From Blastocatellia bacterium (GTDB lineage: Bacteria > Acidobacteriota > Blastocatellia > HR10 > J050): DNA of 64,000 nt. Positions 4,703 to 26,598 of this stretch are shown here, one piece after another (within the stretch, counting starts at the first letter, position 1; each line of letters opens with the position of its first letter). The notes beneath the pieces were generated by a model. The model saw only the letters and a list, made by a program, of their open reading frames with translations. It made no database searches and was not told the DNA's origin. Where the stretch lies: assembly GCA_026985075.1 (NCBI GenBank), contig JALSQX010000074.1, positions 1 to 64,000 on the forward strand, in the 5' to 3' direction. The position numbers were made by a program, and so were the translations under genes.

Positions 4703-6283
4703 ATGGCCAGCGATCATCGCACCCTGGACATTCATGCTCCGGTGGCCTCTCGGCCCCGAACGAGGGACCGGTCCCGGTATATCCTGCTCAACGCCGTGAC
4801 CAGCTATGGACGGGATATACTGGACACGATCATCTTCCTCGTCCTCATTCCCTTCATCATCAGGACGCTGGGCGAGGCCGCGTTCGGGTTATGGTCATTG
4901 ATCTGGGCGTTCCTCAGTTTGTTCGAACTGGCCGATATGGGACTCGGCACCTCGGTGGTCAAATATGTCGCCGACACCAAAGGGCGAGGCGATGACGAGG
5001 GTCAACGCAGAATCGTGTGCACGCTGTTCTGGATCTACGTCATCCTTGGCGGGCTCCTGATGCTGGGGGTGACGGCCAGCCTGGTCTTCTTCAATCGCCT
5101 GTTCGATATCCCTGCGGCCCAGGCTTCGACGGCCCGAGCGGTGTTGCTCATCCTGGGCGCTCGAGCGGCCCTCAACATGCCGCTGGGGATGTTTCGCGGC
5201 GTGCTCATCGGCTACCAGAAACTGAGCGTCGCCAATGGCTATAAGATGCTGGCTTCGATCTTCTATTTCGTCGCCGTATTGGTTTTGCTCCATCGCATCC
5301 CCGACCTGCGCCTGCTGGCCGGGCTCAACCTCCTGATGGGCGTTCTGCCCATGGCGGCGATGATGATCCATGCCAGGCGGATGATCCCCAGTCTCGCGCT
5401 TCATCCGCGATATTTTGATCGCCGCCTCATCGGCCGCGTCATGTCGTTCTCGCTCTATTTCACGCTCATACAGATTTCCGGTCTGCTGGCTACTCGCGTC
5501 GATTCGATGGTCATCAAGATGTTTCTCCCACTGGAGATGGTCGCCGTCTACGCCATCGCCATGCGGTTGTCGGAGAAGGCCAATCGTTTCTGCTCGCACT
5601 TGATCAAGACGCTCACTCCGGTGGTCGCCGAGTTACATGGAGCGGGCGAACAACAAAACATCCGCGCCGTCTGGTACCGGGGGACCAAGCTCACCGTGGC
5701 CTTCGCCTCGCCATTACTGGTTGGGCTGGCGCTTTTGGCCAAGCCCCTGGTGCTGGCCTGGACGGGACCGAACTTCCAACTCTCCGCTCCGGCACTCCAA
5801 TGGTTGGTGGCGGCGGTGATGGTGAGCATCATCCACGGCAACACGGCCAATATTCTCAGCATGGGAGGACACCAGAAATATCTGGCCTTCTCGCTGCTCG
5901 GCGGTCAACTATTGAATCTGGGATTATCTCTCGTCCTCATTCAGCGTCTGGGCATTGTCGGCGTCGCCATGGCCACGTTCATAGCGGCCCTACCGCTCCA
6001 CGTGGGACTCATCCAGACGCGGGCCGGGCGCCTTCATGGGCGCTCGCACTGGGACTTTTATCGTCAAACGGTATGGCCGAGCGTCCCGCCAACGCTGTTC
6101 ATGGCGGCCCTGCTCTATGTGCTTCAGCGGCGGTGGATGCCCTCCACTCTGTTGGAGGTAGCCGCTCAGGAAATTCTGGCCGTGCTCGCTTTTGGCGTTC
6201 TGTTCTGGTTCATTGGCTTCACGGCTCATGAGCGCGCCTATTTCAAAGCCAAGGTGATCCACCGCATCCTGCGCCGATCATGA
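4703..6283 (+). CDS. Wzx-type polysaccharide flippase (MOP superfamily)
   Basis: This 526-residue protein consists almost entirely of hydrophobic helices (12 or more), with the MOP-superfamily layout of Wzx and MurJ-like lipid-linked sugar flippases. The opening RYILLNAVTSYGRDILDTI, followed by an FIIRTLGEAAFGLWSL segment, is typical of the N terminus of polysaccharide flippases (PF01943/PF13440 type). I place the start at the ATG at 4703, with GGAG 11 bases upstream; a longer frame from 4616 would overlap the previous gene and add a hydrophilic leader. It should move undecaprenyl-linked repeat units from the cytoplasmic to the periplasmic face of the inner membrane for the polymerase encoded upstream. 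Confidence 0.85.
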   Translation: MASDHRTLDIHAPVASRPRTRDRSRYILLNAVTSYGRDILDTIIFLVLIPFIIRTLGEAAFGLWSLIWAFLSLFELADMGLGTSVVKYVADTKGRGDDEGQRRIVCTLFWIYVILGGLLMLGVTASLVFFNRLFDIPAAQASTARAVLLILGARAALNMPLGMFRGVLIGYQKLSVANGYKMLASIFYFVAVLVLLHRIPDLRLLAGLNLLMGVLPMAAMMIHARRMIPSLALHPRYFDRRLIGRVMSFSLYFTLIQISGLLATRVDSMVIKMFLPLEMVAVYAIAMRLSEKANRFCSHLIKTLTPVVAELHGAGEQQNIRAVWYRGTKLTVAFASPLLVGLALLAKPLVLAWTGPNFQLSAPALQWLVAAVMVSIIHGNTANILSMGGHQKYLAFSLLGGQLLNLGLSLVLIQRLGIVGVAMATFIAALPLHVGLIQTRAGRLHGRSHWDFYRQTVWPSVPPTLFMAALLYVLQRRWMPSTLLEVAAQEILAVLAFGVLFWFIGFTAHERAYFKAKVIHRILRRS

Positions 6284-6343
6284 GAGGAGGATACGGCAGG
6301 CGTGTCCTGATGCGTGATGCCCGCATAATGATGAGCAGGTCAC

Positions 6344-8809: not shown

Positions 8810-8820
8810 CGAGACGAACC

Positions 8821-10110
8821 ATGAAGATCCTGGTCATCTCCAATCTCTATCCGCCGCACGTGTTGGGAGGCTATGAGATCCTCTGCGGTCAAGTGTGCGG
8901 CGAGTTGCAGCAGCGAGGACACGAGGTGACCGTCCTCACCAGTCGATATGGCTGGGACGGCGATGCGCCCACCGGCGATACGTTGGAGCCGCCATCGAGT
9001 CCCCGAATATGTCGAACTCTTCGGCTCTATCTCCCCTTCGATCGTCCTCCGCAACTCCTCAGGCGGCGCCGATGGCTGGTCGGCACGTACAACTATCGTC
9101 GGACCCGGGAGTGCCTGCGGCACGTTCGCCCCGACGTCATCTTCATATGGAGTCAACTTCGGCTCACCGTTGGACCAGCGCGCGCCGCTCAAGCCTCGGG
9201 CTATCCAGTGGTGTACACCTTCAATGACGAAAACATCGCCAGTTATTTCCCCGCTCGTTTCAAGCTCACGCCCCGGGGGCTGATCGCCTACATCCTCGAT
9301 CACTGGGTTGTCCCCAGCATCACGCTCAAGGGATTGAGGTTCGACCATGTCACCTGCATCAGCCGGTGCGTGAAGCGGAATTTGATCGCCAAAGGATTAC
9401 CCATTTCTCACGCTCGGGTCATCTACCAGGGCATTCCCATAGAGCAATTCCCTCCCAAAGCCAACATGGGGCGTATCCACCATCCGGCCCGCCTGCTCTA
9501 TGTCGGACAACTCCACCCCTACAAGGGCGTCCACACGCTCATCGAAGCGGCTCATCGGATAGCAGAAAGCAGAATCGGCGACGCCCGCGCTTCCTCCGTC
9601 CGCTTCTCTGTCACTATCGCCGGCGACGGCCCTGAGCCTTATAAGCGACAGCTCGTCGATATGGCTGCTCATGGAGCGGCGGTCATCGAGTTCAAAGGGA
9701 AAGTCCCCCACGCCGAGTTATCGTCCCTCTATCGGGAACATGATCTTTTCGTCTTCCCCTCTATCTGGCGAGAGGCATTTGGCCTGACCCACCTGGAAGC
9801 GATGGCCTCGGGCATTCCGGTCATCAGCACGGCCAATGGCGGCCAGGGCGAATTCCTCCGACATGGCCACAATGCCCTCATCTTCGAACCGGGGAACGCC
9901 CATCAACTCGCCGAACGCATTGATCAATTGTTGCGCGATGCTACCCTGCGACGGCGACTGGCCGAACGAGCGCGCGCGCTGGTGGAACGCCAGTTCACAC
10001 TGAAACGATATGTCTCGGAGCTGGAGACGTTCCTCCAGGAAGCCGTGGTCGTGGCGAGACGGGAGAGCGTCGCCGGCTTTCTTCCACGCGCCGTGACCCC
10101 CTCAGGATAA
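8821..10110 (+). CDS. Glycosyltransferase family 4 (GT-B fold)
   Basis: This 429-residue cytoplasmic glycosyltransferase shows both Rossmann halves of a GT-B enzyme. The N-terminal motif MKILVISNLYPPHVLGG marks the acceptor domain. The C-terminal domain carries RLLYVGQLHPYKGVHTLIEA and the E-x7-E motif EAFGLTHLE, which contacts the nucleotide-sugar donor. A GTG at 8806 that overlaps the stop of the Wzc-like gene would add five residues. I prefer the ATG at 8821 because it begins the first beta strand as in other family members. Donor and acceptor sugars cannot be read from the sequence. It is the first of four consecutive GT4 genes, which suggests a repeat unit of at least four or five sugars. 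Confidence 0.88.
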   Translation: MKILVISNLYPPHVLGGYEILCGQVCGELQQRGHEVTVLTSRYGWDGDAPTGDTLEPPSSPRICRTLRLYLPFDRPPQLLRRRRWLVGTYNYRRTRECLRHVRPDVIFIWSQLRLTVGPARAAQASGYPVVYTFNDENIASYFPARFKLTPRGLIAYILDHWVVPSITLKGLRFDHVTCISRCVKRNLIAKGLPISHARVIYQGIPIEQFPPKANMGRIHHPARLLYVGQLHPYKGVHTLIEAAHRIAESRIGDARASSVRFSVTIAGDGPEPYKRQLVDMAAHGAAVIEFKGKVPHAELSSLYREHDLFVFPSIWREAFGLTHLEAMASGIPVISTANGGQGEFLRHGHNALIFEPGNAHQLAERIDQLLRDATLRRRLAERARALVERQFTLKRYVSELETFLQEAVVVARRESVAGFLPRAVTPSG

Positions 10111-10120
10111 CGCGTGGCCT

Positions 10121-11407
10121 ATGGATATCGTACACATTCCACGGCGATTCACTCGACAGGACTGGGGTGGAACGGAGACCGTCGTCCTGGAAACCTGTAA
10201 GCGGCTGCTCCGGATGGGGCATCGGACGGAAATCCTCTGCCCCAACGCTCTCGCCCAGAATGACTATGAAGTCATCGAAGGCGTTCCCGTGCGTCGCGTT
10301 CCCTATTTCTATCCCTACTGGCGGCTCCGTCCAGAAGCCAAACGCCAACTCGATAAGAAAGGAGGCAACCTCTTCTCGTTCGCCCTCATGAAGGCCTTGC
10401 GGGACTATCCTCACCTGGATCTCATTCATCTGCACACGATGAAGCGCGTCGGGGGCATCGGTCGATATGTGGCGCGACAACGACGCATCCCCTACGTCGT
10501 CTCGCTTCACGGAGGCGTTTACGATGTTCCCGCCGAAGAGGCCCGGAGTTGGACGGCTCCCACCGAAGGAGCCATCGAATGGGGGAAAGTGCTCGGTTGG
10601 TGGGTGGGCTCTCGCCGCGTTCTGGCGGATGCCGCCGCCATTCTTTGCGTTGGTCAACGCGAGCAAGAAGAAACACAACGCCGCTATCCGCACAAGCGGA
10701 TCATCCACCTCCCCAACGGCGTTGATCCCGATCGGTTCGCCCGTGGCGACGGCGCCAGATTTCGTCGCCATCATGGCATCCCCCCCGCGGCTCGCGTCAT
10801 CTTGACCATGGGGCGCATCGATCCGCAAAAAAATCAACGCCTGGCCGTCCGCGTCTTACCGGAACTCCTCAAGACTGATCCGCATGTGCATCTCCTTCTT
10901 ATCGGGCCGGTGACCAATGAAGCTTATCACCGCGAGCTCGTCGACGAAGTGCGTCAACGGGGTATCGAGCGGCACGTGACCATCATCCCCGGACTGGAGG
11001 CCGGGAGTCAAGATCTGGTCGATGCCTATCACGCTGCTGATGTCTTTCTGTTGCCTTCCATTCACGAGCCGTTCGGCATTGTGATTCTGGAGGCCTGGGC
11101 GGCCGGGCGACCGGTCGTGGCCAGTCGTGTTGGTGGCGTCCCGTCATTCGTCGTTCATGGGCGCGATGGTCTCCTGTTCGATCCTCACGATGAACGGGCG
11201 TGCGGGCAGGCCATCAGCGAACTACTCGCCCATCCCCAACGGCGACGATCGCTCGCCGAAGCGGGCCGAGCGAAAGCTCGACGGGAGTATAGCTGGGACC
11301 GCATCACCGAGCGACTGGTCGATATCTATCAGGAGGTCATCCGTGAGAATCCTCTTCGTCAACGAAAAATGTGGGTTCTTCGGTGGCGTCGAACAGAATA
11401 TTGCTGA
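10121..11407 (+). CDS. Glycosyltransferase family 4 with overlapping 3' end
   Basis: This is a 428-residue GT-B glycosyltransferase. The N terminus MDIVHIPRRFTRQDWGGTE carries the glycine-rich acceptor-side loop. The donor domain has VILTMGRIDPQKNQ (about residue 228) and the E-x7-E motif EPFGIVILE. The frame runs on for about 22 residues, rich in Arg and Trp, beyond the GTG start of the next gene. The family domain appears to finish near DRITERLVDIYQEVI, so the tail is probably a by-product of reading through the next start region. It is transcribed with its neighbours; the specific sugar is unknown. Confidence 0.87.
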   Translation: MDIVHIPRRFTRQDWGGTETVVLETCKRLLRMGHRTEILCPNALAQNDYEVIEGVPVRRVPYFYPYWRLRPEAKRQLDKKGGNLFSFALMKALRDYPHLDLIHLHTMKRVGGIGRYVARQRRIPYVVSLHGGVYDVPAEEARSWTAPTEGAIEWGKVLGWWVGSRRVLADAAAILCVGQREQEETQRRYPHKRIIHLPNGVDPDRFARGDGARFRRHHGIPPAARVILTMGRIDPQKNQRLAVRVLPELLKTDPHVHLLLIGPVTNEAYHRELVDEVRQRGIERHVTIIPGLEAGSQDLVDAYHAADVFLLPSIHEPFGIVILEAWAAGRPVVASRVGGVPSFVVHGRDGLLFDPHDERACGQAISELLAHPQRRRSLAEAGRAKARREYSWDRITERLVDIYQEVIRENPLRQRKMWVLRWRRTEYC

Positions 11408-12539
11408 TACCGTCGAAGGGCTCCGCGCTCGAGGACATCAGTGTTTCCTGGCTTACGCCACGACCACCGATCGTGGCGCGACGACCTACAAGGCGCTGTT
11501 CGATGGCTGCTTCCCTTGCCTCGAGCTGGCTGACGGCCAGAATACCCAGGCTACATACGCCTTCGAAGTGATCCTCAATCGCGTCGCACCGGATGTCGTC
11601 TACATCCATAAGGCAGCGGATGTGGCATTTTGCGAACCGTTTTTCTCTACGGTACGCTTCGTCCGGATGGTCCACGATCACGACCTCTGCTGTCCGCGGC
11701 GGCACAAGTATTACCTGTTGAACGGCCGCGTGTGTCATCACAAAGCCGGCTGGCGATGCTATCTGGACGGCGCATTCCTGGCGCGGACGCCGACGGGCGT
11801 GACGTGGGTCAGCATCGGTCGCAAGCTCAAGGACATGCACCGCCATCGCCGGTTAGATGCGTTACTGGTGGGAAGTCGATTCATGAAGCGAGAGCTGGTG
11901 CAAAATGGATTTCCCGAAGAGAAAGTTCACATCGTGCCCCCCGTCGTTCGCCTGGAGCATCTTCGACCATCTCCCCTTCCCGATGAGCCACGCCTCCTCT
12001 ACGTGGGACAGCTCATTCGAGGCAAAGGCGTCGATCTTCTCCTTCGGGCGCTCACTCACGTCAGATGCCCCTTCACGGCCACCATCGTCGGCACCGGTAA
12101 TGCTGAGCCGCACCTTCGCGCCTTATGCCATCGATTGGGGCTCGACGAACGAGTGCGCTTTCAGGGATGGGTCGATCACGATGATCTCGATCGGTTCTAT
12201 CGCGAGGCCAAGGTCGTCGCCGTCCCCTCGCGCTGGCCGGAACCCTTCGGGTTGATCGGTCTGGAAGCCATGCATCACGGACGCCCGGTCGTCGCTTTCG
12301 CCGTCGGCGGCATCCCCGACTGGCTGGTCCACGACGTGACCGGATTGCTCGTCCCCGAACAAGATGTCGTCACCTTTGGAAAAGCGGTGGAGCGGCTCCT
12401 CACTCATACCGACATGGCGGCCAGCTATGGTCGGGCGGCACGGGAACGTGTGCAAAAGCATTATTCATTCGAGCGATATCTGGATCGACTGGAAATCCAT
12501 TTGAGCGGTCAAACGTCCCGGATCGCGCTGGTCGTGTGA
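11343..12539 (+). CDS. Glycosyltransferase family 4, GTG start
   Basis: This 398-residue GT-B enzyme starts with GTG (VRILFVNEKCGFFGGVEQN), preceded by a strong AGGAGG ribosome-binding site about 6-7 bases upstream. The frame itself is open from 11127, but nothing before 11343 matches the family. The N-terminal domain contains an unusual cysteine-rich stretch (DHDLCCPRRHKYYLLNG, with further Cys soon after) of the kind seen in some GT4 enzymes near the acceptor site. The donor domain shows PRLLYVGQLIRGKGVDLLLR and EPFGLIGLE. It overlaps the previous gene by 65 bases in another frame, which is long for this compact operon. Confidence 0.87.
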   Translation: MRILFVNEKCGFFGGVEQNIADTVEGLRARGHQCFLAYATTTDRGATTYKALFDGCFPCLELADGQNTQATYAFEVILNRVAPDVVYIHKAADVAFCEPFFSTVRFVRMVHDHDLCCPRRHKYYLLNGRVCHHKAGWRCYLDGAFLARTPTGVTWVSIGRKLKDMHRHRRLDALLVGSRFMKRELVQNGFPEEKVHIVPPVVRLEHLRPSPLPDEPRLLYVGQLIRGKGVDLLLRALTHVRCPFTATIVGTGNAEPHLRALCHRLGLDERVRFQGWVDHDDLDRFYREAKVVAVPSRWPEPFGLIGLEAMHHGRPVVAFAVGGIPDWLVHDVTGLLVPEQDVVTFGKAVERLLTHTDMAASYGRAARERVQKHYSFERYLDRLEIHLSGQTSRIALVV

Positions 12540-12555
12540 AAGGAGAGAAAGATCC

Positions 12556-13704
12556 ATGAACATAGGAATCACGACGTTTGGCGCTGATGGAGGCAAGTCG
12601 GGGATCAGCCAATATGTCATCAATTTGCTCAACCAGTTTGCCCGCGCCGAGAATGGGACTCATTTTGAAATCATCGTGTATGAGGATGAGCAGTCGCTCT
12701 TCGTTCCCCCCGCGACGCACTTCACCGCGCAGTGTCTGAGCGGCCGATGGCGTCATCCGGTACTCAATATCGCCTGGCACCAACTGGCGCTCCCGCGGTG
12801 GTGCCGGAAGCGAGGGTACGACGTTCTCTTCCTCCCCGCCGGGAATAGACGGCTCCCATTCTCCGTGCCCTGTCCGACGGTGGGAACGGTCCATGATCTT
12901 TCCAGCCTCCATGTAGAGGACAAGTATGATCCGGCACGCCTGTTTTACATCACCCGCGTGCTTCCTCTCCTCATTCGACGACTCACGCGCGTGCTCACCG
13001 TCAGCGAGAGCAGTAAGCGCGACATCGTTGAGTACGCTGGCGTCCCCGAAGATCGCGTCCACGTGACGCCGCTGGCCGCCAATCGCGATCTCTACCATCC
13101 GCGCGATCGCCAGAGTGCTCTCGCTCGCACGGTCCCTAGATATGGCTTGCGGCCTCCTTACATCCTCTATATCTCTCGAATTGAACATCCGGGCAAGAAT
13201 CACGTTCGTCTCATTCGGGCCTTCGCTCGATTGAAGGAGAGCGAAGCGCTCCCCCACCAACTCGTCCTCGCCGGCAGCGACTGGATGCGCGCCGATGAGG
13301 TGCACCGGGCGGCGGAGATGTCGGGCTACGCCGATGACATCGTCTTCACCGGATTCGTGCCCACGGAAGACTTGCCGGATCTTTACTGTGGCGCTGACGT
13401 CTTCGTCTTCCCCTCTCTTTATGAGGGCTTTGGATTGCCCGTGCTGGAGGCGATGTGTTGCGGCATTCCGGTCGCCTGCTCGAACATCTCGTCGATGCCC
13501 GAAGTCGCCGGCGACGCCGCGCTCCTCTTCGACCCTTACGATGAAGAGGCTATCGAAGAGGCCCTGCGAGAACTCCTCACCGATCCCGAACGGCGAGCCT
13601 ATTACGCGCAGCGCGGTCTGGAGCGAAGCCAGCGCTTCACCTGGTCGGCGACGGCGGCCCGCACACTGGAGGTGCTTCGCGTCGCTGCCGAAGAAGGGCG
13701 GTGA
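12556..13704 (+). CDS. Glycosyltransferase family 4 (mannosyltransferase-like)
   Basis: This 382-residue GT-B glycosyltransferase has a clear ribosome-binding site (AAGGAGAG) ahead of the ATG. The N terminus MNIGITTFGADGGKSGISQY carries the glycine-rich loop. Other family features are TVGTVHDLSSLH in the acceptor domain, LTVSESSKRDIVEYAGVPED at the domain boundary, and SLYEGFGLPVLEAMCCGIPV, which contains the E-x7-E motif. This subgroup (WbaZ-like) contains many mannosyl- and rhamnosyltransferases, but the donor cannot be assigned here. The gene lies 16 bases after the previous GT and 90 bases before the sugar-transferase start. Confidence 0.88.
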   Translation: MNIGITTFGADGGKSGISQYVINLLNQFARAENGTHFEIIVYEDEQSLFVPPATHFTAQCLSGRWRHPVLNIAWHQLALPRWCRKRGYDVLFLPAGNRRLPFSVPCPTVGTVHDLSSLHVEDKYDPARLFYITRVLPLLIRRLTRVLTVSESSKRDIVEYAGVPEDRVHVTPLAANRDLYHPRDRQSALARTVPRYGLRPPYILYISRIEHPGKNHVRLIRAFARLKESEALPHQLVLAGSDWMRADEVHRAAEMSGYADDIVFTGFVPTEDLPDLYCGADVFVFPSLYEGFGLPVLEAMCCGIPVACSNISSMPEVAGDAALLFDPYDEEAIEEALRELLTDPERRAYYAQRGLERSQRFTWSATAARTLEVLRVAAEEGR

Positions 13705-13794
13705 GCGCGTTGATCCCGGAATCGCCGCAACAGGAAATATCCGACCGAGAGCGAGTCGACGAACACCATCAACTGAGTGAAAGGAAAGAGCATC

Positions 13795-14541
13795 ATGGTC
13801 GCGAGAGCTTCTCATACTTTCCCATCGGTGAACCGCATCGAATTGATGGAAGAACTCTATCGCCGGTATGGTCAGGGAAACATCCGCCGTCGCCTTCGCT
13901 ATTGGCGAAAGAAGTACGCCTGGATTCTCGTCGTCGGCGGGGCGCGCGCGCTGAAGCGCCTCATCGACATCGTGGGAGCAGCCGTCCTGTTGGTCGTGTT
14001 ATCTCCGCTCTTCCTGGTCGTCGCCGTGTTGATTAAGCTGACCGATGGGGGTCCGGTGCTCTTCTGGCAAACGCGCGTGGGCCAATGGGGACGAGAATTC
14101 CCCTTCCCCAAATTCCGATCCATGGTCGTCAACGCCGAAGAATTGAAGGATCAACTGTTGGCCCACAACGAGCATCAAGACGGGCGCATCTTCAAGATGA
14201 AGAATGATCCTCGCGTCACCTGGATTGGCCGCATCATCCGTAAGTTCAGCATCGATGAGCTACCCCAATTGTGGTGCGTGCTCAAAGGCGATATGTCGCT
14301 GGTGGGACCACGCCCGCCGGTCCCCCGCGAGGTTGCCGAATATACGCTGGCCGATCGGCGCCGACTGGACGCCAAACCCGGCTTGACCTGCATCTGGCAA
14401 GTGAGCGGTCGCAGCGATATTCCCTTCGACAAGCAGGTGGAACTCGACGTGCAGTATATCGAGAGTCAAAGCTTTTGGCTCGATCTCAAATTGTTGCTCA
14501 AAACCATTCCCGCCGTTCTCCTCGGCAAAGGAGCGTATTGA
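13795..14541 (+). CDS. Polyprenyl-phosphate sugar-1-phosphate transferase, intact
   Basis: This 248-residue monotopic enzyme transfers a sugar-1-phosphate from an NDP-sugar to undecaprenyl phosphate, the first membrane step of repeat-unit synthesis. It has one hydrophobic re-entrant helix (about 57-80), then DGGPVLFWQTRVGQWGREF, PKFRSM, and the catalytic Asp154-Glu155 dyad in FSIDELPQLW. KGDMSLVGPRP and PGLTCIWQVSGRS follow. It is a short form lacking the extra transmembrane domain of WbaP. I chose the ATG at 13795 (AAAGGAAAG upstream) over a GTG at 13777. It is the only one of three sugar-transferase-like domains in this operon that keeps the catalytic dyad. Confidence 0.9.
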   Translation: MVARASHTFPSVNRIELMEELYRRYGQGNIRRRLRYWRKKYAWILVVGGARALKRLIDIVGAAVLLVVLSPLFLVVAVLIKLTDGGPVLFWQTRVGQWGREFPFPKFRSMVVNAEELKDQLLAHNEHQDGRIFKMKNDPRVTWIGRIIRKFSIDELPQLWCVLKGDMSLVGPRPPVPREVAEYTLADRRRLDAKPGLTCIWQVSGRSDIPFDKQVELDVQYIESQSFWLDLKLLLKTIPAVLLGKGAY

Positions 14542-14542
14542 G

Positions 14543-15784
14543 ATGATGAACCGCCAGCGGTCATGGGCTCGGCTCATGGCGGGCCTCATGGGCCTCATCC
14601 TGGTCATCGTCCCACTGAGAGGCGAGACGACAGCTTCGCCGAGGGGATCGACGCCCCTCGATCCTCCAGCCGTCTATCTGACCTGGCAACATGATCCGAC
14701 GAGCACCATGACTGTTCTCTGGCATACTTCGTCAGTGAGTGAGGACGTCATCCAGTATTGCCGGTCTGATGAACGGATGTGGCACACGGTCACGGGCTCA
14801 CACCGTCCTCTCCCCTTCTCCGATCGAATCGTTCACCTGGTGGAGCTCACCAATCTCGAGCCGGCAACGGATTATCGCTTCCGGTTCGGCGATCATTCGG
14901 TGGAGTTCGCGTTCCGTACGCTGCCGCGCACATTGCGCGAACCGATGCGATTCGTCGTCGGTGGAGACACCATGCAGCGTGTCGAGTGGTTTCGGGAGAT
15001 GTGCCGTCGCGCGGCGCAATACGATCCCTGGTTCGCTATCATCGGCGGCGACATCGCTTATGCCGACGGTGATCCAACCAAAGTCGCGCGATGGATGGAG
15101 TGGTTCACTATCTGGAAACAGACCATGGTGACCTCGGATGGGCGACTCATTCCCTTGCTGGCCGTCATCGGTAATCACGAGGTTTCCGGTGGCTTCAATC
15201 AACGGCCCGATCAAGCGCCTTTCTTCTACAGCCTGTTTCCACTGCCCGTATCGCGAAGCTATCGCGTGCTGGATTTCGGAAACTATATGAGTCTCGTCTT
15301 CCTGGATTCCCAGCACACTCAGGCGATTGCCGGCGCGCAAACTGATTGGCTGGCCGAACGACTGGCCGAACGATTCACGGTTCCCCACCTTTTCGTCGTC
15401 TCCCATGTACCCGCTTATCCATCAGCGCGACCTTTCGACTACTGGGTGAGCGTGAAGATCCGCAAATACTGGGTGCCGCTCTTCGAGCAATTTGGCGTCG
15501 ATGTCGTTTTCGAGCATCACGATCACACCTATAAGCGCACTCATCCCATTCTGGCTGGCGCAGTGAATCCACAAGGCATTGTATATCTCGGCGATGGAGC
15601 CTGGGGCGTGCGGACTCGCCCGCCTCGCCAGGACTGGTATCTGGCCGAGACGGTCGCTCGACGCCACTTCATTCTGGTGACGATCGATAATGAAAAGCGC
15701 CGATTCGAGGCCATCGACCATCAAGGGGTCGTATTCGACCAGATGGAGCAAACGGTTGCTTCAGGACTCATGTCCACCCCATAA
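14543..15784 (+). CDS. Secreted purple-acid-phosphatase-like metallophosphoesterase
   Basis: This 413-residue exported protein has an N-terminal signal peptide (hydrophobic core LMAGLMGLILVIV, residues about 13-26) and a fibronectin-like domain (about 35-125, ending in LEPATDYRFRFGD). A calcineurin-like phosphoesterase domain follows. Metal-binding motifs are present in order: VVGGDT, IIGGDIAYADGD, VIGNHE, VVSHVPAY and a C-terminal FEHHDHTYKR in place of the common GHxHxYER. Two adjacent ATGs (14543, 14546) lie right after the previous stop. It sits between sugar-transferase genes. A role in removing phosphate from a periplasmic glycan or lipid-carrier intermediate is possible but unproven. 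Confidence 0.82.
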   Translation: MMNRQRSWARLMAGLMGLILVIVPLRGETTASPRGSTPLDPPAVYLTWQHDPTSTMTVLWHTSSVSEDVIQYCRSDERMWHTVTGSHRPLPFSDRIVHLVELTNLEPATDYRFRFGDHSVEFAFRTLPRTLREPMRFVVGGDTMQRVEWFREMCRRAAQYDPWFAIIGGDIAYADGDPTKVARWMEWFTIWKQTMVTSDGRLIPLLAVIGNHEVSGGFNQRPDQAPFFYSLFPLPVSRSYRVLDFGNYMSLVFLDSQHTQAIAGAQTDWLAERLAERFTVPHLFVVSHVPAYPSARPFDYWVSVKIRKYWVPLFEQFGVDVVFEHHDHTYKRTHPILAGAVNPQGIVYLGDGAWGVRTRPPRQDWYLAETVARRHFILVTIDNEKRRFEAIDHQGVVFDQMEQTVASGLMSTP

Positions 15785-15833: not shown

Positions 15834-17258
15834 ATGTCGACTCATCCGATCAGCCGTCCCACCCCGGAGTATGTCAAGGAAGAACTCTACCGGCGTTTCT
15901 CTCGTCGAGGATTACGGCGACAGCGGTTGAGGCGATGGGTGCGCGGGTTGAGTTGGGTCCTCGTCGTTCAGCTCCTCTCCGGCACCAAGCGCATCATGGA
16001 CATGCTGCTGGCCATGAGTGGATTGATCATTCTCTCGCCGCTCCTCATGGTCAGTCTCGTCCTCCTGGCTAGTCACCTCATCGCCCTCGAACGGCGTCCT
16101 CGCGTCGGCCGCTGGTGCCAGACCTTCGACGAATACCGATTCACGTTGCCCGACACGACCTGGGGGCGCCTGTTGAAGCTCGTTCGCTTCCATCGCCTTC
16201 CCGTTCTGCTCAACATCCTCAAAGGCGACATGTCTTTTGTCGGGCCGCGTCCGGTCTCTCCCGGAGCGCTGAGTCCTCGTGAGCGCGCCGTGCGCAAGCG
16301 ATATGACGTGCGGCCGGGACTCGTTTGCCTGTGGTGGATTCGCCGACGCGCCAACATCGATTACGGTACGGAGATCGAAGCCGACGGCGAGTATGTGGAG
16401 ACACAGAGCGTTCTCGGTGACCTGGGCATCGCGTTGCGCGCCATCCCGGCGATTCTCTATGGCGAAGGCGTGGCGACCGCGCCGGATCTGGTGACCATCC
16501 TCAACATTCCCATTGATAACGTGACCATGGCCGAGGCCATCGAAATCATCATGAACCTGCTCGACAGCCAACATGGTCACCAAATCTGTTTCGTCAATGC
16601 CGATTGCGCTAACATCGCCTATCGCGATGAGGAGTACCTCCATATCCTCCGCCGCGCCGATTATGTATTTGCTGATGGGATCGGGTTGAAGTTGGCGGGC
16701 AAGTTGCTCGGTCAAGAAATCAAGCAGAATGTCAATGGAACTGACCTCTTCCCGCGCCTCTGCCAAGCGCTCGCCGACACGGGGAAGAGCGTGTTCTTGC
16801 TCGGCGCTCGCCCTGGGATAGCCGAGCGGGTCCGCGATTGGATCGCCCAATACGCTCCTGGCGTTCGGGTCGTCGGCACGCAACACGGCTACTTCTCGCG
16901 GGAAGAAGAGGCTGCCATCATCAACCGCATCGCCAATTCCCAAGCCGACCTGCTCCTGGTCGCTCTGGGTGCTCCCCGACAGGACAAATGGATTCATCGG
17001 CATCTACACGAGACCGGCGTCAAAGTGGCCATGGGCGTGGGCGGCCTGTTCGATTTCTACTCCGGGCGCATCCCGCGAGCCCCCCTCTGGATGCGCGAGA
17101 TGGGCCTGGAGTGGCTCTATCGGTTCATTCAGGAACCGAGGCGCATGTGGAAGCGATACTTTGTCGGCAACGCCGTTTTTCTCTTTCGCGTCATCAAGGA
17201 ACGATTCACGAACTCGACAATCCGAACCGGTGAGTGGCGGGAAACGATGCCCAGATGA
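15834..17258 (+). CDS. Fusion: degenerate sugar-transferase domain plus WecG/TagA/CpsF glycosyltransferase
   Basis: This is a 474-residue two-domain protein. Residues about 50-215 align with polyprenyl-phosphate sugar transferases: KRIMDMLLAMSGLIILSPL, then KGDMSFVGPRP and RPGLVCLWWIRRR. The KFRSM segment is missing, and the catalytic Asp-Glu is replaced by His120-Arg121 (VRFHRLPVLLN). The C-terminal part (about 225-460) is a complete TagA-type domain with FVNADCANIAY, FADGIGLKL, NGTDLFPRL, LGAPRQDKW and GVGGLFDFYSG. The start at 15834 follows a GGGAG site; a longer frame extends back into the previous gene. The TagA part should add a sugar to a lipid-linked primer, and the dead N-terminal part could anchor it at the membrane. 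Confidence 0.85.
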   Translation: MSTHPISRPTPEYVKEELYRRFSRRGLRRQRLRRWVRGLSWVLVVQLLSGTKRIMDMLLAMSGLIILSPLLMVSLVLLASHLIALERRPRVGRWCQTFDEYRFTLPDTTWGRLLKLVRFHRLPVLLNILKGDMSFVGPRPVSPGALSPRERAVRKRYDVRPGLVCLWWIRRRANIDYGTEIEADGEYVETQSVLGDLGIALRAIPAILYGEGVATAPDLVTILNIPIDNVTMAEAIEIIMNLLDSQHGHQICFVNADCANIAYRDEEYLHILRRADYVFADGIGLKLAGKLLGQEIKQNVNGTDLFPRLCQALADTGKSVFLLGARPGIAERVRDWIAQYAPGVRVVGTQHGYFSREEEAAIINRIANSQADLLLVALGAPRQDKWIHRHLHETGVKVAMGVGGLFDFYSGRIPRAPLWMREMGLEWLYRFIQEPRRMWKRYFVGNAVFLFRVIKERFTNSTIRTGEWRETMPR

Positions 17259-17442: not shown

Positions 17443-19017
17443 ATGAGAGCTATTGTGATGGCCACGGGCCTGCATCCTGATATCGCAGCCTTGACCGAAC
17501 GGCATCCGGCACCGATGCTCCCCCTGATCGACCGCCCTTTCATTCAACATGTGGTCGAGTATCTCGTCGATCAAGGCGTCACCGAATTCGATTTCATCTT
17601 GAGTCATCTCCCCGAGCAGATCGAACATCTGCTCGGCGATGGTCGGCGGTGGGGCAGCCGATTTCGATTTCACCTGGCTCGAGATCCAATCCGTCCCTAC
17701 GCGCTACTGAGAATGATCCTCACTGGCGAGCAAAAGGACGAGGAGGATGCCCCTCTTCTTCTCGTCCATGCGGACCGATTGCCTCACGTTCGGGTCGAAC
17801 AGACCACTCCTTCCCCCCCCACCACCCTTCCGGTCCTGTTCACCTGGCGTGATCCCTCACGGTCCGGTCCCGAGGACAAGAAGCCTCAGTGGACGGGATG
17901 GGCCTGGATCTCGAGCCATTTGATGCACCGTCTCCCTGAGGAGAGTGACGAGGAGGCGCTCGAGCAGTACCTTCGGGAGCACATGACCGATGAGGACTCA
18001 CACACTGTAGAGGTCCCCCACTGTCTCAGCGTGCGATCGTTCGAAGAACTGCTGGCCGCCCAGCGCACTGTATTAGACAAAGCCTTCCCCGAGCTCCTGC
18101 TCTCGGGCAGGGAGATCGAACCGGGCATCTGGCTGTCGCGGAATGTCAGTCTTCATCCCACGGCTCGACTCATCCCTCCGGTTTATGTGGGGCGCAATTG
18201 TCGCATCGGCGAGGGGGTACAACTGGGCCCCTACGCTGTTGTCGGACATGATTGTGCACTGGATGCCCGCTGCGTGGTCTCCGAATCGGTCATTTTCCCC
18301 GGCAGTTATGTTGGAGAGGCACTGGAACTCGATCACGTCCTGGTGGACAAGAATCGACTCGTCAATGTGCGCCTGGGGGCGGCCGTCTCGATCGCCGATG
18401 ACTTCATTCTCGGCAGCCTCTCAGAGAGCGCCCTTCACTCCTGGATAGCGGGCCTGCTCTCGCGCCTGCTCGCTGCCAGCATCCTGATCTTCACCTGGCC
18501 GCTTCTTTTGTTGACCGCCCTCTATGTGAAGCTCACGCGGCCCGGAGCCGTCGTACAGAAGAGAGAGGTCGTCGCCCTCCCCACCACTCCTGATGAAGCC
18601 CAATGGCGCACGTTTCCGCTCTGGAGTTTCGCTCTCCCCGCCGATCAACCGGAGCGGCCGCGCGATTGGGGATGGCGGGGGCCGTCGGATCTATTGCTCC
18701 GCGCTCTCCCGGCATTGATCAATATCGCCCGCGGCGAGCTGCGGTTCGTCGGCGTCTGTCCCCGCACGCCGGAGGAGATTCGAGCACTCCCCCACGATTG
18801 GCGAGAGCTTTATTTGCGCACCAAGGCGGGGTTGATCACCGAAGCCTTCGTCCACTATGGCGCTCATCCTGATGAGGACGAACTCTACTCGGCCGAGGCC
18901 TTCTATTCGGTGATGGCCAGCCTGCGCCACGACGTGAGCTTGATACTCGGCGCCCTGGGGCGATTCCTCAAGGGAACGAGCGCTCGCCCCATCGCCCTGG
19001 AGCAACAGGAGAGTTGA
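17443..19017 (+). CDS. Three-domain pseudo-enzyme: nucleotidyltransferase-like, left-handed beta helix, sugar-transferase-like
   Basis: This 524-residue protein starts at an ATG after GAGGAGG. Residues 1 to about 210 follow the NDP-sugar pyrophosphorylase pattern (MRAIVMATGLHPDIAALTE, then HPAPMLPLIDRPFIQHVVEY). The GGxGTR loop is lost and the PKP lysine is Ala. Residues about 225-320 are hexapeptide repeats of a left-handed beta helix (IGEGVQLGPYAVVGHDC). Residues about 335-515 begin with a hydrophobic helix and then resemble the sugar-transferase C terminus (ALPALINIARGELRFVGVCP, then KAGLITE). The catalytic Asp-Glu position is Arg420-Ala421. It is probably non-catalytic and may act as a scaffold or allosteric partner of the intact transferase. 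Confidence 0.75.
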   Translation: MRAIVMATGLHPDIAALTERHPAPMLPLIDRPFIQHVVEYLVDQGVTEFDFILSHLPEQIEHLLGDGRRWGSRFRFHLARDPIRPYALLRMILTGEQKDEEDAPLLLVHADRLPHVRVEQTTPSPPTTLPVLFTWRDPSRSGPEDKKPQWTGWAWISSHLMHRLPEESDEEALEQYLREHMTDEDSHTVEVPHCLSVRSFEELLAAQRTVLDKAFPELLLSGREIEPGIWLSRNVSLHPTARLIPPVYVGRNCRIGEGVQLGPYAVVGHDCALDARCVVSESVIFPGSYVGEALELDHVLVDKNRLVNVRLGAAVSIADDFILGSLSESALHSWIAGLLSRLLAASILIFTWPLLLLTALYVKLTRPGAVVQKREVVALPTTPDEAQWRTFPLWSFALPADQPERPRDWGWRGPSDLLLRALPALINIARGELRFVGVCPRTPEEIRALPHDWRELYLRTKAGLITEAFVHYGAHPDEDELYSAEAFYSVMASLRHDVSLILGALGRFLKGTSARPIALEQQES

Positions 19018-19087
19018 AGAGGATGGAACGAGGCGGACAGCAGCCGAGCGTTCATCGACGCAACCAAATCCGAGGAGCGTGAATCTT

Positions 19088-20086
19088 ATGAGTTCGGTAC
19101 CCTCTCGGCGAACGATGACGACCCTGGAATCCCATCCCACATCGGGTACGACGGATCGGCAAACCGTGCTTCGGCTTCGGCGTCGGGCCATCGAGCTCGG
19201 ACACCTGGAAGCCTGGCTCACTCAAGGGCGAGGCTCATTCCACTTCGAAAATGTGCGCGCCCTCCGATCTCTCCTTCGCTTCGGACTGCGGGTGATGGGA
19301 CTGCTCGCGCGCGGCGAACGAAACGCGCTCCATCCGGTAGTGCGCGAGATTCGACTCGCCTTTCCCCGGCTTCCGGAGGCATTTTGCGGATTCCGACTCC
19401 TCCACCTTTCCGACCTCCACGTCGATGCCATCGCTGGCTTCGCCGATGCCGTTGCTGACCGGCTTCAATCGCTCCAGGTGGACCTCTGTGTGCTGACCGG
19501 CGATTATCGCTTCGAAGTGTATGGTCCCTGTCACAACGTCTACGCCAACATGGAGAAAATTCTCCGCCACATCCGCGCTCGCGAGGGGATCGTCGGCATT
19601 CTGGGTAATCACGACTTCGCCGAAGAAGCCGTCGAGCTGGAACGCATGGGCGTGCGCATGCTGGTGAACGACGCCTGGGAACTCCGACGGCATCAGGAGA
19701 GCCTGTGGTTCATCGGCCTGGACGATCCCCATTACTATGGCTGTGATGATCTGTCCGGCGCCATGACGAGGGTTCCCGACGAGGCGTTCAAAATTCTCCT
19801 CGTGCATACGCCGGAACTCTTCCGAGAGGCGGAAGAGTACGGCATCGACCTCTACCTCTGCGGTCACACTCACGGAGGACAAATCTGTCTGCCGGGCATC
19901 GGCCCCCTGCTCGTCAATGCGAGCTGCCCGCGCAAATATACCCGCGGCGTATGGCGGTATAAAACCCTCACCGGGTACACCAGCTCGGGCGTGGGATCAT
20001 CCCTGCTGCCGGTTCGGTTCAACTGTCCACCAGAAATTGGCCTCATCGAATTACGCTGTCCGCGTCATCATGCTCATCGATTGTGA
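19088..20086 (+). CDS. YkuE-like calcineurin-fold metallophosphoesterase
   Basis: This 332-residue protein has all the metal-binding motifs of the YkuE/LpxH-like metallophosphoesterase group. They are LLHLSDLHVD (about residue 103), VLTGDYRFE, GILGNHD, LLVHTPELF and LCGHTHGGQICLPG. The first 90 residues are basic and poorly conserved, with a weak hydrophobic stretch near the middle, so the protein may associate with the membrane. An ATG at 19088 with GAGGAG about 10 bases upstream is preferred over a GTG at 19079. Known relatives hydrolyse phospholipid-type or isoprenoid phosphoesters; here it ends the polysaccharide operon and may act on a polyprenyl phosphate or lipid, by inference. Confidence 0.82.
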   Translation: MSSVPSRRTMTTLESHPTSGTTDRQTVLRLRRRAIELGHLEAWLTQGRGSFHFENVRALRSLLRFGLRVMGLLARGERNALHPVVREIRLAFPRLPEAFCGFRLLHLSDLHVDAIAGFADAVADRLQSLQVDLCVLTGDYRFEVYGPCHNVYANMEKILRHIRAREGIVGILGNHDFAEEAVELERMGVRMLVNDAWELRRHQESLWFIGLDDPHYYGCDDLSGAMTRVPDEAFKILLVHTPELFREAEEYGIDLYLCGHTHGGQICLPGIGPLLVNASCPRKYTRGVWRYKTLTGYTSSGVGSSLLPVRFNCPPEIGLIELRCPRHHAHRL

Positions 20087-20174
20087 ATGAGAGGGTGAGA
20101 AGGGTGAGGAGAGAGCCGTCATCTCCGCGCCCCGCGGGCCATTCCTCTCACCCCCTCTTCATGAGGAGGTGCCT

Positions 20175-22076
20175 ATGGCGTTAAGGAAAGAGCGCATCCG
20201 TTTCGTGGATCCATTCATGGGTCATCAGGCACGTCGGCTCCATCTGACCGAGCCCGATTACACCCGACCGCTCCTGGAGATGACGCCCGAACAAAAGGAG
20301 CGGATCATGGACAAACTCGCCTTCCTCTATGGCGAGGAGCGGGCGCGCAAATGCTTTGTCGAGCTGGAACGGATCATGCGCGTCTACTACGCTCACAAGA
20401 CGCCGGAGATGATCGAAGAGGACAAAACGTTCGATCCCGCTCAACGCTTCACCGAGCGAGACATCATCCTCATCACCTATGGAGATCTCATTCGCAGTCC
20501 GGGGAAAGCGCCCTTGCGCGCGCTCTCGGATTTCCTCAACGTCTTCATGCGCGGCGCCATCAACACCATCCACATTCTTCCCTTCTTCCCGTACTCCTCG
20601 GATCGGGGATTCGCCGTCATCGATTTCGAGCAGGTTGACCCCCGGTTGGGGAGTTGGGAAGACATCGAAGAACTGAGCCTCCACTTCCGGCTCATGTTCG
20701 ACGGCGTCTTCAATCATGTCTCGTCCAAGAGCCGCTGGTTCCAGGAGTTCTGCAATGGGAACCCCCGCTACCAGAATTACTTCATCAGCTTTTCGACCAA
20801 AGAAGCGATCAGTCCCGATCACCTCAAGCTCATCCTGCGTCCGCGGACCACGGATTTGCTCACCGGTTTCCACACCATCAACGGGATGAAGTACGTGTGG
20901 ACGACGTTCAGTCCGGATCAAATCGACCTCAACTACAAAAACGAAGAGGTTCTGCTCCGCGTGATCGAGATTCTCCTCTACTACGTCCGACGAGGCGCTG
21001 ATATTATTCGGCTCGACGCCGTCACCTATCTGTGGAGCGAATTGGGGACTTCGTGCGCTCACTTGAAACAAACGCACGTCGTGGTTCAACTCTTTCGCGC
21101 CGTCCTCGATGTCGTCGCGCCGCGAGTGGCCCTCATCACCGAGACGAACGTCCCTCATGAGGAGAACATCAGCTATTTCGGCGATGGTCAGAACGAAGCC
21201 CAGATGGTGTATAACTTCGCCTTGCCCCCGTTGGTGCTCTACACTTTCCTGACAGGGAATTGCCGGAAACTTGCCGAGTGGGCGAGCACCCTGGAGAGAG
21301 TCTCCGATACAGCCACGTATTTCAATTTCCTCGATTCGCACGATGGCATCGGCCTGATGGCCGTCAAGAATATCCTTCGGTCGGAGGAGATCGATTTTCT
21401 CGTCGAGAAGGCGCGGCAACACGGGGGACTCGTCTCATATAGACTCGATGGAGATGGCACCCAGAGTCCCTACGAATTGAACATCACCTGGTACAGCGCC
21501 CTGAACTGCGAAGATGCCGATGAGAGCCTCGACCTGCAGGTGGATCGATTCGTCGCCTCTCGCGCCATCGCCCTCGTCCTGATGGGCGTACCGGGCATCT
21601 ATTTTCACGGCTTGTTCGGCAGTCCGAATGACCGAGACGCCATTCTCCATGGAGGCGAACCGCGCAGCATCAATCGCAAGGTCGTCGACGAGCGGGCCTT
21701 GTTCGAGACGTTCTCCGATCCTTCCTCTTCCGCTTACAAGATCGCCAAGCGGTTCGGCGATCTCATCGAAAAGCGCATTCAGATGCCCGCTTTCCACCCG
21801 AACAGTACCCAGCGCATTCTGTTCATTGATGATGCCGTCTTCTGCGTTCTCCGCGAAGCGCCCGACGGCCGCCAAATCGTTCTGGCTCTGACCAATGTGA
21901 CAGCCAGGGAACAGTCGGTGGACATTTCCGGCGAAGAGATCGGCTGGTGGTGCGAGGTCTGGACGGACGTCGTATCCGAAACCGCGTTGACCATGAACAA
22001 CGGCAAACTCTCGGTGAGATTAAAACCCTATCAGGTCATGTGGCTCACTCCTCAGGGCATGGCCGACCAGACATGA
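20175..22076 (+). CDS. GH13 subfamily 18 sugar phosphorylase (sucrose- or glucosylglycerate-phosphorylase type)
   Basis: This 633-residue cytoplasmic enzyme has the GH13 (alpha/beta)8 barrel of the retaining phosphorylases. Catalytic residues are visible: nucleophile Asp281 in IIRLDAVTYLW, acid/base Glu323 in ITETNVPHEENISYFG and Asp390 in FLDSHDG. The EAQMVYNFALPPLVLY segment is characteristic of subfamily 18. The TETNVPH form is, as I recall it, more like glucosylglycerate or sucrose-6-phosphate phosphorylases than classical sucrose phosphorylase, so the acceptor is left open. No signal peptide is present. The ATG at 20175 follows GAGGAGG. About 120 residues precede the barrel core, longer than in the classical enzymes. 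It would yield glucose-1-phosphate, possibly feeding NDP-sugar supply. Confidence 0.85.
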   Translation: MALRKERIRFVDPFMGHQARRLHLTEPDYTRPLLEMTPEQKERIMDKLAFLYGEERARKCFVELERIMRVYYAHKTPEMIEEDKTFDPAQRFTERDIILITYGDLIRSPGKAPLRALSDFLNVFMRGAINTIHILPFFPYSSDRGFAVIDFEQVDPRLGSWEDIEELSLHFRLMFDGVFNHVSSKSRWFQEFCNGNPRYQNYFISFSTKEAISPDHLKLILRPRTTDLLTGFHTINGMKYVWTTFSPDQIDLNYKNEEVLLRVIEILLYYVRRGADIIRLDAVTYLWSELGTSCAHLKQTHVVVQLFRAVLDVVAPRVALITETNVPHEENISYFGDGQNEAQMVYNFALPPLVLYTFLTGNCRKLAEWASTLERVSDTATYFNFLDSHDGIGLMAVKNILRSEEIDFLVEKARQHGGLVSYRLDGDGTQSPYELNITWYSALNCEDADESLDLQVDRFVASRAIALVLMGVPGIYFHGLFGSPNDRDAILHGGEPRSINRKVVDERALFETFSDPSSSAYKIAKRFGDLIEKRIQMPAFHPNSTQRILFIDDAVFCVLREAPDGRQIVLALTNVTAREQSVDISGEEIGWWCEVWTDVVSETALTMNNGKLSVRLKPYQVMWLTPQGMADQT

Positions 22077-22854: not shown

Positions 22855-25800
22855 ATGATGCGAGCCAAGCTTCGCCATAGCCTCATGGGATTAAAACGCG
22901 CCTTATGGGCGCTCTGGGAAGGCGCAGGGAAATATCGCTATCTGGTTGATGCGACGACCGACGCCATCATCTGCGTTGACGAACGGGGACGGATTTGCGA
23001 GTTCAATCGCGCGGCCGAGCAAATGTTCGGCTACGCCAGAACCGAGATCCTTGGAAAGCCTTTGACCGGGCTCATGCCCGAACGGTTCCGCGATCGACAT
23101 CGAGCGGCGTTTGAGCATTATCGGACCACCGGTCAGCGCCGCCTTTCTCACTGGCAGAACATAGAACTCATCGGGCTCACCAAAGATGGGCGAGAGATCC
23201 CTCTGGAAGTTTCTTTTTCTTCCTTTGAAATGAAAGGACGGAGATTCTTCGCCGGCATCCTCCGCGACCTCACCGAGCGGAAACAGACCGAGGAGCAGCT
23301 CCGCAAGCTCTCCCGCGCCGTCGAGCAGAGTCCGAGCATTGTGATGATCACCGATACTCAAGGGCGCATCGAATATGTCAATCCCAAGTTCACCGAAGTC
23401 ACCGGTTACACGTTGGCGGAGGTGGAGGGGAAAAATCCGCGCATTCTGAAATCGGGCGAAACGCCACCAGAGGTGTATGAGCAACTCTGGGAAACGATCA
23501 CCACCGGTGGCGAATGGCGCGGCGAATTCCATAACAAGAAGAAGAATGGGGAACTCTATTGGGTCTCGGCGTCGATTTCACCGGTCAAGGACGCTCAAGG
23601 AGAGATCACCCACTTCATTAGCATTCAGGAAGACATTACCGAGCGGAAGCGCGTCGAGGAAGAACGCGCTCGATTGAGCGCCATCCTGGAATTGACGACG
23701 GACCTCGTGGGAATTGCGACTCCGAAAGGAGAGATCATCTATCTGAATCGAGCTGGCCGTGAGATATTGGGGTGGTCTGAGGATGTCCATCTGCGCACTG
23801 CCGATGCTTATCCTCCCGAAGCACGAGAGTTGATCCTGGAGAAAGCCACATTCACAGCTCTCCATGAAGGTATCTGGCAGGGCGAAACGAGCATGATCAC
23901 GCGAGAGGGAAAGATCATTCCCGTCTCGCAAGTGATCATCGCTCATAAAAATCGCCGGGGTGAAGTAGAATACCTATCGACCATTGCTCGCGATATCAGC
24001 GACCGGAAACGCGCCGAAGAGGAGCTCAAGAAGAGTTACCGCGTGCAATGCTTACTGAACGATCTCCTGAGCATTTCGCTGAAGCAGAGTTCACTCGATG
24101 ACGCCTTGGACCATGCTTTGGATCTACTCCTTTCCGTACCCTGGCTGCCCACGCGACCTCAGGGCGGGATTTTTCTCGTGGACGAGGATGAGCAAACGCT
24201 CGTGCTGAAAGCTCAAAGAGGACTGGCGCCGCCTGTCCTCAAGATGTGCGCCCGCGTTCCCTTCGGACGATGCCTCTGTGGGCGCGCCGCCGCCAGTGGC
24301 CAACTTCAATTTGCTGACTGCCTCGATGATCGTCATGAAACCCGGTATGAAGGGATCACGGGACACGGACATTATAATGTTCCCATTCTGCTCGACGGCA
24401 AGATCCTGGGCGTCATTGTGCTTTATTTGAATGAAGGTCATCGATCCACGGCACAAGAGGTTGCTTTCCTGGAAGCCGTGGCCCACACACTGGCCGGTCT
24501 CATCAACCGGAAACGCGCCGAAGAGGAACTCAAAGAGGCCAAGGAGGCGGCTGAAGCGGCGACCCGGGCCAAGAGCGAATTCCTGGCCAACATGAGCCAC
24601 GAGATTCGCACGCCGATGAATGCTATCATCGGCATGACCGGTCTGTTACTGGATACCGAATTGACGTCAGAGCAACGAGAGTTCGTCGAGACGATTCGCA
24701 CCAGCGGCGACGCCCTGCTCACCATCATCAACGAGATCCTGGACTTCTCCAAGATCGAGGCCGGGAAGATGGAACTCGAACAGCAGCCTTTCGATCTGCG
24801 TGACTGCGTGGAGGAAGCCCTCGATCTGGTCGCCACCAAAGCTGCTGAGAAGAGATTAGACCTGGCCTATCTCATCGATCCATCCGTCCCCAACACGCTC
24901 GTCGGCGACGTGACGCGACTCCGGCAAATTCTGGTCAACCTCCTCAGCAACGCTGTGAAGTTCACCGATGAAGGAGAAGTGGTCGTCTCGGTGACCAATC
25001 GCGGATCGCGACGACCGGATGGCGATTCGCCGGCCGATGACGCAGACCGGAATCGGACTTCGCGCCGCACACCTTACGAGATTCACTTCGCCGTCAAAGA
25101 CACGGGCATCGGCATCCCTCAAGATCGCATGGATCGACTGTTCCAATCGTTCAGCCAGGTGGATGCGTCGACCACCCGTCGATATGGAGGAACTGGTCTG
25201 GGACTGGCCATCAGCAAGCGCCTGGCTGAGATGATGGGAGGCACGATGTGGGTGGAGAGCGAAGTGGGGCGAGGTTCGACGTTTCATTTCACCATCTTGG
25301 CCGAACCGGCGCCCGGTCAATCCCGCCGTTACCTGCATCATAATCAGCCGCAACTGGCCGGAAAACGCGTCCTCATTGTTGATGATAATGCTACCAATCG
25401 ACGCATTCTCACGCTGCAAACGCAGTCCTGGGGCATGATGCCTCGCGCCGCGGCGTCCGGCGCTGAAGCCCTGGAATGGATTCGGCGCGGCGATCCCTTC
25501 GATGTGGCCATTCTCGATATGCACATGCCCGAGATGGACGGGCTCGCGCTGGCCGCTGAAATCCGAAAGTACCGAGATGCCCAGAAGCTCCCCTTGATCA
25601 TGCTCACCTCACTTGGTCCCCGAACGAGCGATGAGGATTCGCCCTATTTCGCCGCTTTTCTGACCAAACCGATCAAGCCCTCGCAATTGTATAACGCGCT
25701 CCTCACCGTGTTCGACGGACAACCGGTTTCGATTACCTCATCGCCCCATCGACCGCAGATCGATCCTCATCTGGCTCAACGACGGCCGCTCCGCATTCTC

Positions 25801-26598
25801 CTGGCCGAAGATAATGTGGTGAATCAAAAAGTCGCCCTGCGCATCCTCGAGAAGATGGGTTACCGCGCTGATGTGGCGGCCAACGGTCTGGAAGTCCTTC
25901 AAGCCCTCGAGCGACAATCCTATGACGTCGTGCTCATGGACGTACAGATGCCCGAAATGGATGGATTGGAAGCCAGCCGTCGCATCTGTCAGCGTTGGCC
26001 GCGCCAACAGCGCCCGCGCATCATCGCCATGACGGCCAACGCCATGCAAGGCGATCGCGAAGAATGTCTGGCCGCGGGCATGGACGATTACATCAGCAAG
26101 CCCGTTCGACCGGAGGAACTCCAAGCGGCCTTAGAACGCTGCCCTTCACGTTCGATGACGGAGCGATGGGCATCTTCCAATGGCGACGCCGACCCCCCGC
26201 TCGATCCGGACACTTTGGATGCACTCCGCGCGCTGCAGGATGACGATGACGAGACCGATCTCCTCTCCGAACTCGCCGGGTTATTCCTCGCCGACGCGCC
26301 GTCTCACCTGACCCGCATCCGCCAGGCTATCGAGCACGGCGATGCGCAGACCTTGGAGCGAGCGGCGCACACGTTGAAAAGCAGCAGCGCCAATCTAGGG
26401 GCCCGGCGCTTCTCGGCGCTCTGTTTTGAGCTGGAGAAGAGAGGGCGCGCCGGGACGGTAGATGATGATGCCGGACGTCTGATCACCGAGCTGGAGGCGG
26501 AGTTCGAACGGGTGCGCGAAGCGCTCACGCAATATCACTTGAACCCTTCAACCATCTCTGGGGAGGATGACGATGACCGACCAACTGGCCTGGCCTGA
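22855..26598 (+). CDS. Hybrid histidine kinase PAS3-GAF-HisKA-HATPase-REC2-Hpt
   Basis: This 1247-residue protein has no obvious membrane helix and is probably a cytoplasmic sensor. In order it has three PAS domains (about 27-140, 150-270, 275-395) and a GAF domain (about 405-550). The HisKA domain has His582 in [17 protein letters not shown], followed by the ATPase domain (about 625-820, [12 protein letters not shown]). Receiver one has Asp888, receiver two has Asp1029 ([13 protein letters not shown]), and the Hpt domain has His1172 ([13 protein letters not shown]). It can therefore run a whole phosphorelay internally. AGGAGA precedes the ATG. The PAS sequences do not reveal a cofactor. It overlaps the next kinase by about 26 bases, so the two are translationally coupled. 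Confidence 0.93.

Follow-up and report, generated by a model that had tools for sequence, protein, structure and literature searches.

A double pseudoenzyme paired with a small PGT as a probable non-catalytic subunit of polysaccharide initiation

The gene at positions 17443–19017 (+ strand) of the stretch of Blastocatellia DNA analyzed here (64,000 nucleotides, referred to as the window) encodes a 524-residue protein, NT-LbH-pseudoPGT, in which a nucleotidyltransferase-fold (NT) domain is followed by a left-handed beta helix (LbH) and then by a monotopic phosphoglycosyl transferase (PGT, Bac_transf) domain, and in which the catalytic signatures of both enzyme folds have been lost. This protein is probably a non-catalytic, membrane-anchored scaffold or regulatory subunit of a PGT complex that initiates a surface polysaccharide. 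The observations that bear on this reading are the loss of the sites, the folds, the selection acting on the domains, the gene cassette, an exact co-occurrence with an intact PGT, the regulatory neighborhood, and a set of related gene fusions. An earlier note on this DNA had suggested that the protein serves polysaccharide initiation as a scaffold, a sensor, or an allosteric partner, and this is supported by the universal loss of the motifs and by the co-occurrence with the intact PGT.

Domain architecture and the lost catalytic signatures

The reading frame is genuine, with an ATG start preceded by a good Shine-Dalgarno sequence (GAGGAGG), and the gene is present as one copy in its own genome of 5.2 Mb. 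The NT domain occupies 17443–18087 (residues ~1–215), followed by the beta helix at 18106–18417 (residues ~222–325), and the pseudo-PGT domain at 18421–18978 (residues ~327–512), all on the + strand. The beta helix is recognized by the Pfam Hexapep profile PF00132 (41.9 bits, against a cut-off of 27), and the C-terminal domain by the Bac_transf profile PF02397 (33.2 bits, against the same cut-off), while a profile of the C-terminal domain matches PglC (8e37) with E = 7e-19. Residues 1 to ~110 match sugar-1-phosphate nucleotidyltransferases in NCBIfam and PDB sequence searches, and the matches of the NT domain are to archaeal profiles of the GlmU/RmlA/MurU type. The NTP_transferase profile PF00483 matches 14 of 27 family members at E ≤ 0.001, with P0001 not among them.

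An AlphaFold2 model of the monomer, built from an alignment of 27 sequences, reached a mean pLDDT of 77.5, with low values in part of the beta helix. In this model, the fold of the NT-LbH portion matches tlr0611, MurU, GMPPA/GMPPB (7d72–7d74 among the top matches), and RmlA, with tlr0611 (8x7s) being the best match in both sequence and fold. The C-terminal domain, modeled separately with a pLDDT of 89, had no Foldseek hits below E = 0.001 other than PglC and WbaP, with TM values of 0.65–0.70 for PglC (8e37, 8g1n). Both enzyme folds are thus confirmed by the match of the predicted models to known structures, and the three-domain layout described in the earlier note, with a beta helix between two enzyme folds, agrees with the Pfam, NCBIfam/PDB, and fold matches alike. 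The pseudo-PGT domain has retained a putative membrane-helix segment, a hydrophobic stretch with a conserved Pro353 that forms a long helix in the models and is a candidate for the re-entrant membrane helix of monotopic PGTs.

The positions of the lost motifs were also as previously read from the sequence. The GGxGTR loop of the NT domain is replaced by ATGLHPDIAAL (17461–17493, + strand), the PKP lysine aligns over Ala23 (17509–17511, + strand), and the catalytic Asp-Glu dyad of PglC aligns over Arg420-Ala421 (18700–18705, + strand), preceded by a stretch that is shorter than in PglC. Full-length relatives were gathered from genome collections in the Acidobacteriota and the Desulfobacterota, the two phyla to which the genome searches refer, and yielded 29 members that share 20–88% identity with the window protein. 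The loop, the lysine, and the dyad are missing in 29/29, with no GTR and no lysine at the respective positions, no glutamate at the dyad in any member, and an aspartate alone, at position 420, in two of the 29. The loss is thus broader than the earlier note could state for a single protein, and its account has to be qualified by these two aspartates and by one distant fusion, at locus L078 of genome G250, which keeps the PKP motif and the Asp-Glu pair.

No close homologue with intact sites was found, and the L078 gene is the only, and distant, architectural analogue. This gene (G250:C26:64000-82000, 6879–9476, + strand) joins an NT-LbH portion to a live PGT from another lineage, with a complete Asp-Glu site. 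Its NT loop is partly decayed, reading GGQDTHL, and the listed reading frame begins far upstream of the likely initiating methionine (MKAVILAGG).

Purifying selection acts on each of the three domains. In the comparison with the orthologue from the same genus, dN/dS is about 0.27 in the NT domain (0.083/0.309), about 0.13 in the pseudo-PGT domain, and about 0.03 in the beta helix (0.018/0.589), which is the most constrained of the three. A pseudogene, a sequencing error, or local decay can be ruled out with near certainty by the existence of 29 relatives in two phyla, their open frames, and dN/dS values below 1 in each domain. Acyltransferase activity of the beta helix is also rejected, given that the LbH columns of the family alignment contain no invariant histidine.

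The gene cassette and its small PGT

The gene lies in a cassette that has the same order at most loci, with an intact small PGT followed by a WecG/TagA glycosyltransferase bearing an N-terminal dead PGT, and then the NT-LbH-pseudoPGT gene. In the window, the small PGT, termed here the obligate partner, is found at 13777–14541 (+ strand), with the motifs SIDELPQ and GPRP, and the second pseudo-PGT, with His-Arg in place of Asp-Glu, is joined to a WecG/TagA glycosyltransferase that appears intact, at 15834–17258 (+ strand). The small PGTs that adjoin a family gene have kept Asp-Glu in 24 of 24 cases, whereas the dead PGT of the WecG fusions lacks the dyad wherever it is readable, with an aspartate alone in two. 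The loss of the dyad in the second pseudo-PGT is thus common to its relatives, and the cassette consists of two dead PGTs and a live one. At locus L036, the family gene does not adjoin the PGT, and a small PGT is located on another contig.

A metallophosphatase resembling purple acid phosphatases (14543–15784, + strand), which lies inside the cassette, is found only in this genus, where the cassette is also followed by a YaeI/LpxG-like metallophosphatase (19079–20086) and a GH13 sucrose-phosphorylase-like enzyme (20169–22076). Two long hybrid histidine kinases in tandem (22855–26598 and 26567–29317) lie downstream of the cluster, and L033, L037, L038, L043, and L044 have similar kinases close to the family gene. 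Upstream, the sequences of the frames read as four glycosyltransferases of the GT4 type (starting at 8806, 10121, 11127, and 12556; 8806–13704, + strand), preceded by frames resembling an O-antigen ligase or polymerase (1670), Wzx (4616), and Wzc (6344), over 1670–8809 (+ strand), which likely represent a Wzx/Wzy-type context. As the window begins at base 1 of contig C74, the polysaccharide cluster may be truncated on the left.

The association with the small PGT extends well beyond this locus. Among 297 genomes of Acidobacteriota, the small-PGT profile gave full-length matches (398–445 bits) in nine, the same nine that carry the full-length pseudo-protein, and the next-best matches, below 295 bits, were large PGTs aligned over the catalytic domain only. 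The same coincidence (9/9) was found in 297 genomes of Desulfobacterota, in one case as a fused chain, so that the specific small PGT is present in exactly the 18 pseudo-protein genomes of the 594, based on the top 5–9 candidates scored per genome. The probability of such a match by chance is near 2e-17 per phylum at face value, in a test that ignores shared ancestry, which makes the true figure weaker. The expectation that the gene would accompany an intact sugar transferase is thus borne out exactly in both samples, mostly with the two as operon neighbors. The distances among the pseudo-proteins are correlated with those of the PGT (r = 0.70) and the WecG fusion (r = 0.90), without correction for ancestry. 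Plasmids yielded no full-length match to the pseudo-protein and no match to its partner.

Gene fusions provide a further view of these components. At L084 (10958–13036, − strand), a dead PGT, WecG, and a live PGT form a single chain of 693 residues. A WecG-type glycosyltransferase is fused to tandem STAS-like domains at L079 (1530–3155, + strand), L081 (7448–9046, − strand), and L082 (5078–6664, − strand), with the STAS assignment being confirmed by a profile for G366/L079. A STAS-glycosyltransferase protein of Anabaena, all4160, is mentioned in PMC8256260.

Regulatory neighbors and competing explanations

At many loci, the cassette is adjoined by SpoIIE phosphatase/HATPase proteins, single STAS proteins, and hybrid histidine kinases. 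Of 16 carrier genomes, 13 have a STAS gene no more than 6.5 kb away, whereas the density of STAS genes predicts 0.38, in counts of Pfam hits that are not corrected for ancestry. In the window, no STAS gene was found near the cassette, and the STAS genes of its own genome are located on other contigs. One of these contigs (C31, locus L121, 6096–10322, + strand) carries an RR, a SpoIIE/HATPase gene, a STAS gene, and a live NT-LbH gene of the tlr0611 type in a row.

Single-domain STAS proteins may act directly on the pseudo-protein, or on its complex with the live PGT, with partner switching toggling the initiation of polysaccharide synthesis post-translationally, although this is tentative and rather doubtful. 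The link is of interest because published accounts give the targets of SypA and HmpV as unknown (PMC10120452, PMC4517449, PMC8256260), and, if true, it would suggest a possible kind of target for SypA-like and HmpV-like STAS proteins.

The classical role of STAS systems is in the control of sigma factors (PMC8256260), which favors an account in which the gene is only inherited along with the cassette and has its function elsewhere, with the STAS and SpoIIE neighbors controlling transcription. Linkage and co-occurrence do not, in themselves, separate physical from genetic association, but a mere passenger is quite unlikely when set against the exact co-occurrence in two phyla, the uncorrected correlation of distances with both the PGT and the WecG fusion, and the finding of the cognate parts as fused chains. 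It is very unlikely, in turn, that one of the domains has acquired a new active site and catalyzes a new reaction. Strongly conserved non-canonical residues (GDGxRWG, HADRLP, and WxGWA) would fit such an enzyme, but loops similar to GDGxRWG are also found in live NT relatives, HADRLP is not invariant, the beta helix lacks an invariant histidine for acyl transfer, and the acid dyad is kept in the PGT-like domain of no member.

A further possibility, which is unlikely, is a bridge similar to GMPPA, in which each dead half would assemble with a live counterpart, the NT-LbH portion with a pyrophosphorylase of the same layout and the PGT domain with the live PGT, coupling the supply of nucleotide sugars to initiation. 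In both sequence and fold, the best matches are to NT-LbH enzymes acting as oligomers, including the GMPPA/GMPPB complex, and in G155 (L033) the genes for STAS and a live tlr0611-type NT-LbH protein are found directly upstream of the cassette. This type is present in just two of 199 Acidobacteriota, both of which carry the cassette. These are only two of the nine sampled Acidobacteriota carriers, however, and L033 is the only carrier locus with a live NT-LbH neighbor.

The non-catalytic subunit remains the best explanation, with linkage, co-occurrence, and the related fusions pointing to the small PGT as its partner. The dead PGT domain would be seated on the inner membrane next to the live small PGT, which the same cassette encodes. 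This live PGT lacks the regulatory and dimerization DUF found in WbaP and other large PGTs, and the pseudo-protein may fill a comparable scaffold or regulatory role in trans. The beta helix would oligomerize and expose the dead NT domain as a surface for docking or sensing, and the pseudo-protein may tether the live PGT to the WecG/TagA enzyme, which is itself borne by another dead PGT, and decide whether initiation is on. A physical complex, together with its oligomeric state, stoichiometry, effect on activity, and regulation, is what this arrangement would imply. The likely input in most relatives would be a SpoIIE/HATPase/STAS partner switch or phosphorelay encoded next to the cassette, which would make the subunit a frequent candidate target of STAS partner switching. 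Small monoPGTs are stated to be functional monomers (PMC12802240), so that they do not generally require a partner, and this counts against the subunit reading, as do the lack of a STAS gene near the window cassette, the non-adjacent PGT of L036, the disregard of shared ancestry in the co-occurrence tests, and their scoring of the top 5–9 candidates per genome.

Known systems and significance

Both non-catalytic regulatory paralogues, such as GMPPA, and the control of a PGT through protein contact, as by EpsW, are already known. GMPPA, the eukaryotic non-catalytic regulator of the pyrophosphorylase GMPPB, has the same NT-LbH layout, has lost catalysis, and is paired with a live enzyme. The window protein, by contrast, is bacterial, adds a dead PGT domain, and has a PGT, rather than a pyrophosphorylase, as its obligate partner. 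A dead paralogue does accompany a live counterpart in the same genomes for the PGT half, whereas for the NT half a live relative of the tlr0611 type is present in only two carriers. Unlike the window protein, tlr0611 (8x7s), a UTP-glucose-1-phosphate uridylyltransferase, is an annotated enzyme that has kept the catalytic loop and PKP and has no PGT domain, and PglC (8e37, 8g1n), a small monotopic PGT, shares the fold of the C-terminal domain, which lacks its Asp-Glu.

In WbaP (8t53), a PGT is also coupled to a non-catalytic domain, a DUF that senses UMP and stabilizes the dimer (PMC10942596), but the cassette has a small live PGT with no such DUF, its candidate regulator being encoded as a separate protein. 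In Myxococcus xanthus, the initiating PGT EpsZ is activated through contact with the protein EpsW (PMC12802240), but EpsW is a response regulator of one domain and EpsZ is a large PGT. The SypE-SypA system of Vibrio fischeri and HmpU/V/W of Nostoc tie STAS proteins and a serine kinase/phosphatase to the production of polysaccharides (PMC10120452, PMC4517449, PMC8256260), with no link to a PGT or pseudo-PGT being reported in the literature searched. This literature, from which key subscription papers were absent, contained no papers on pseudo-PGTs or on STAS together with PGTs, and no double-dead protein with a PGT domain that is tied one-to-one to a live PGT.

Knowledge of how bacteria control the initiation of Wzx/Wzy-type polysaccharides is only beginning to accumulate. 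A conserved double pseudoenzyme, paired one-to-one with a small PGT and encoded beside a dead PGT that is fused to the next enzyme, would represent a new way of building and switching this initiation. The frequent STAS and SpoIIE neighbors of the cassette also make the targets of STAS proteins in the regulation of polysaccharides directly testable.
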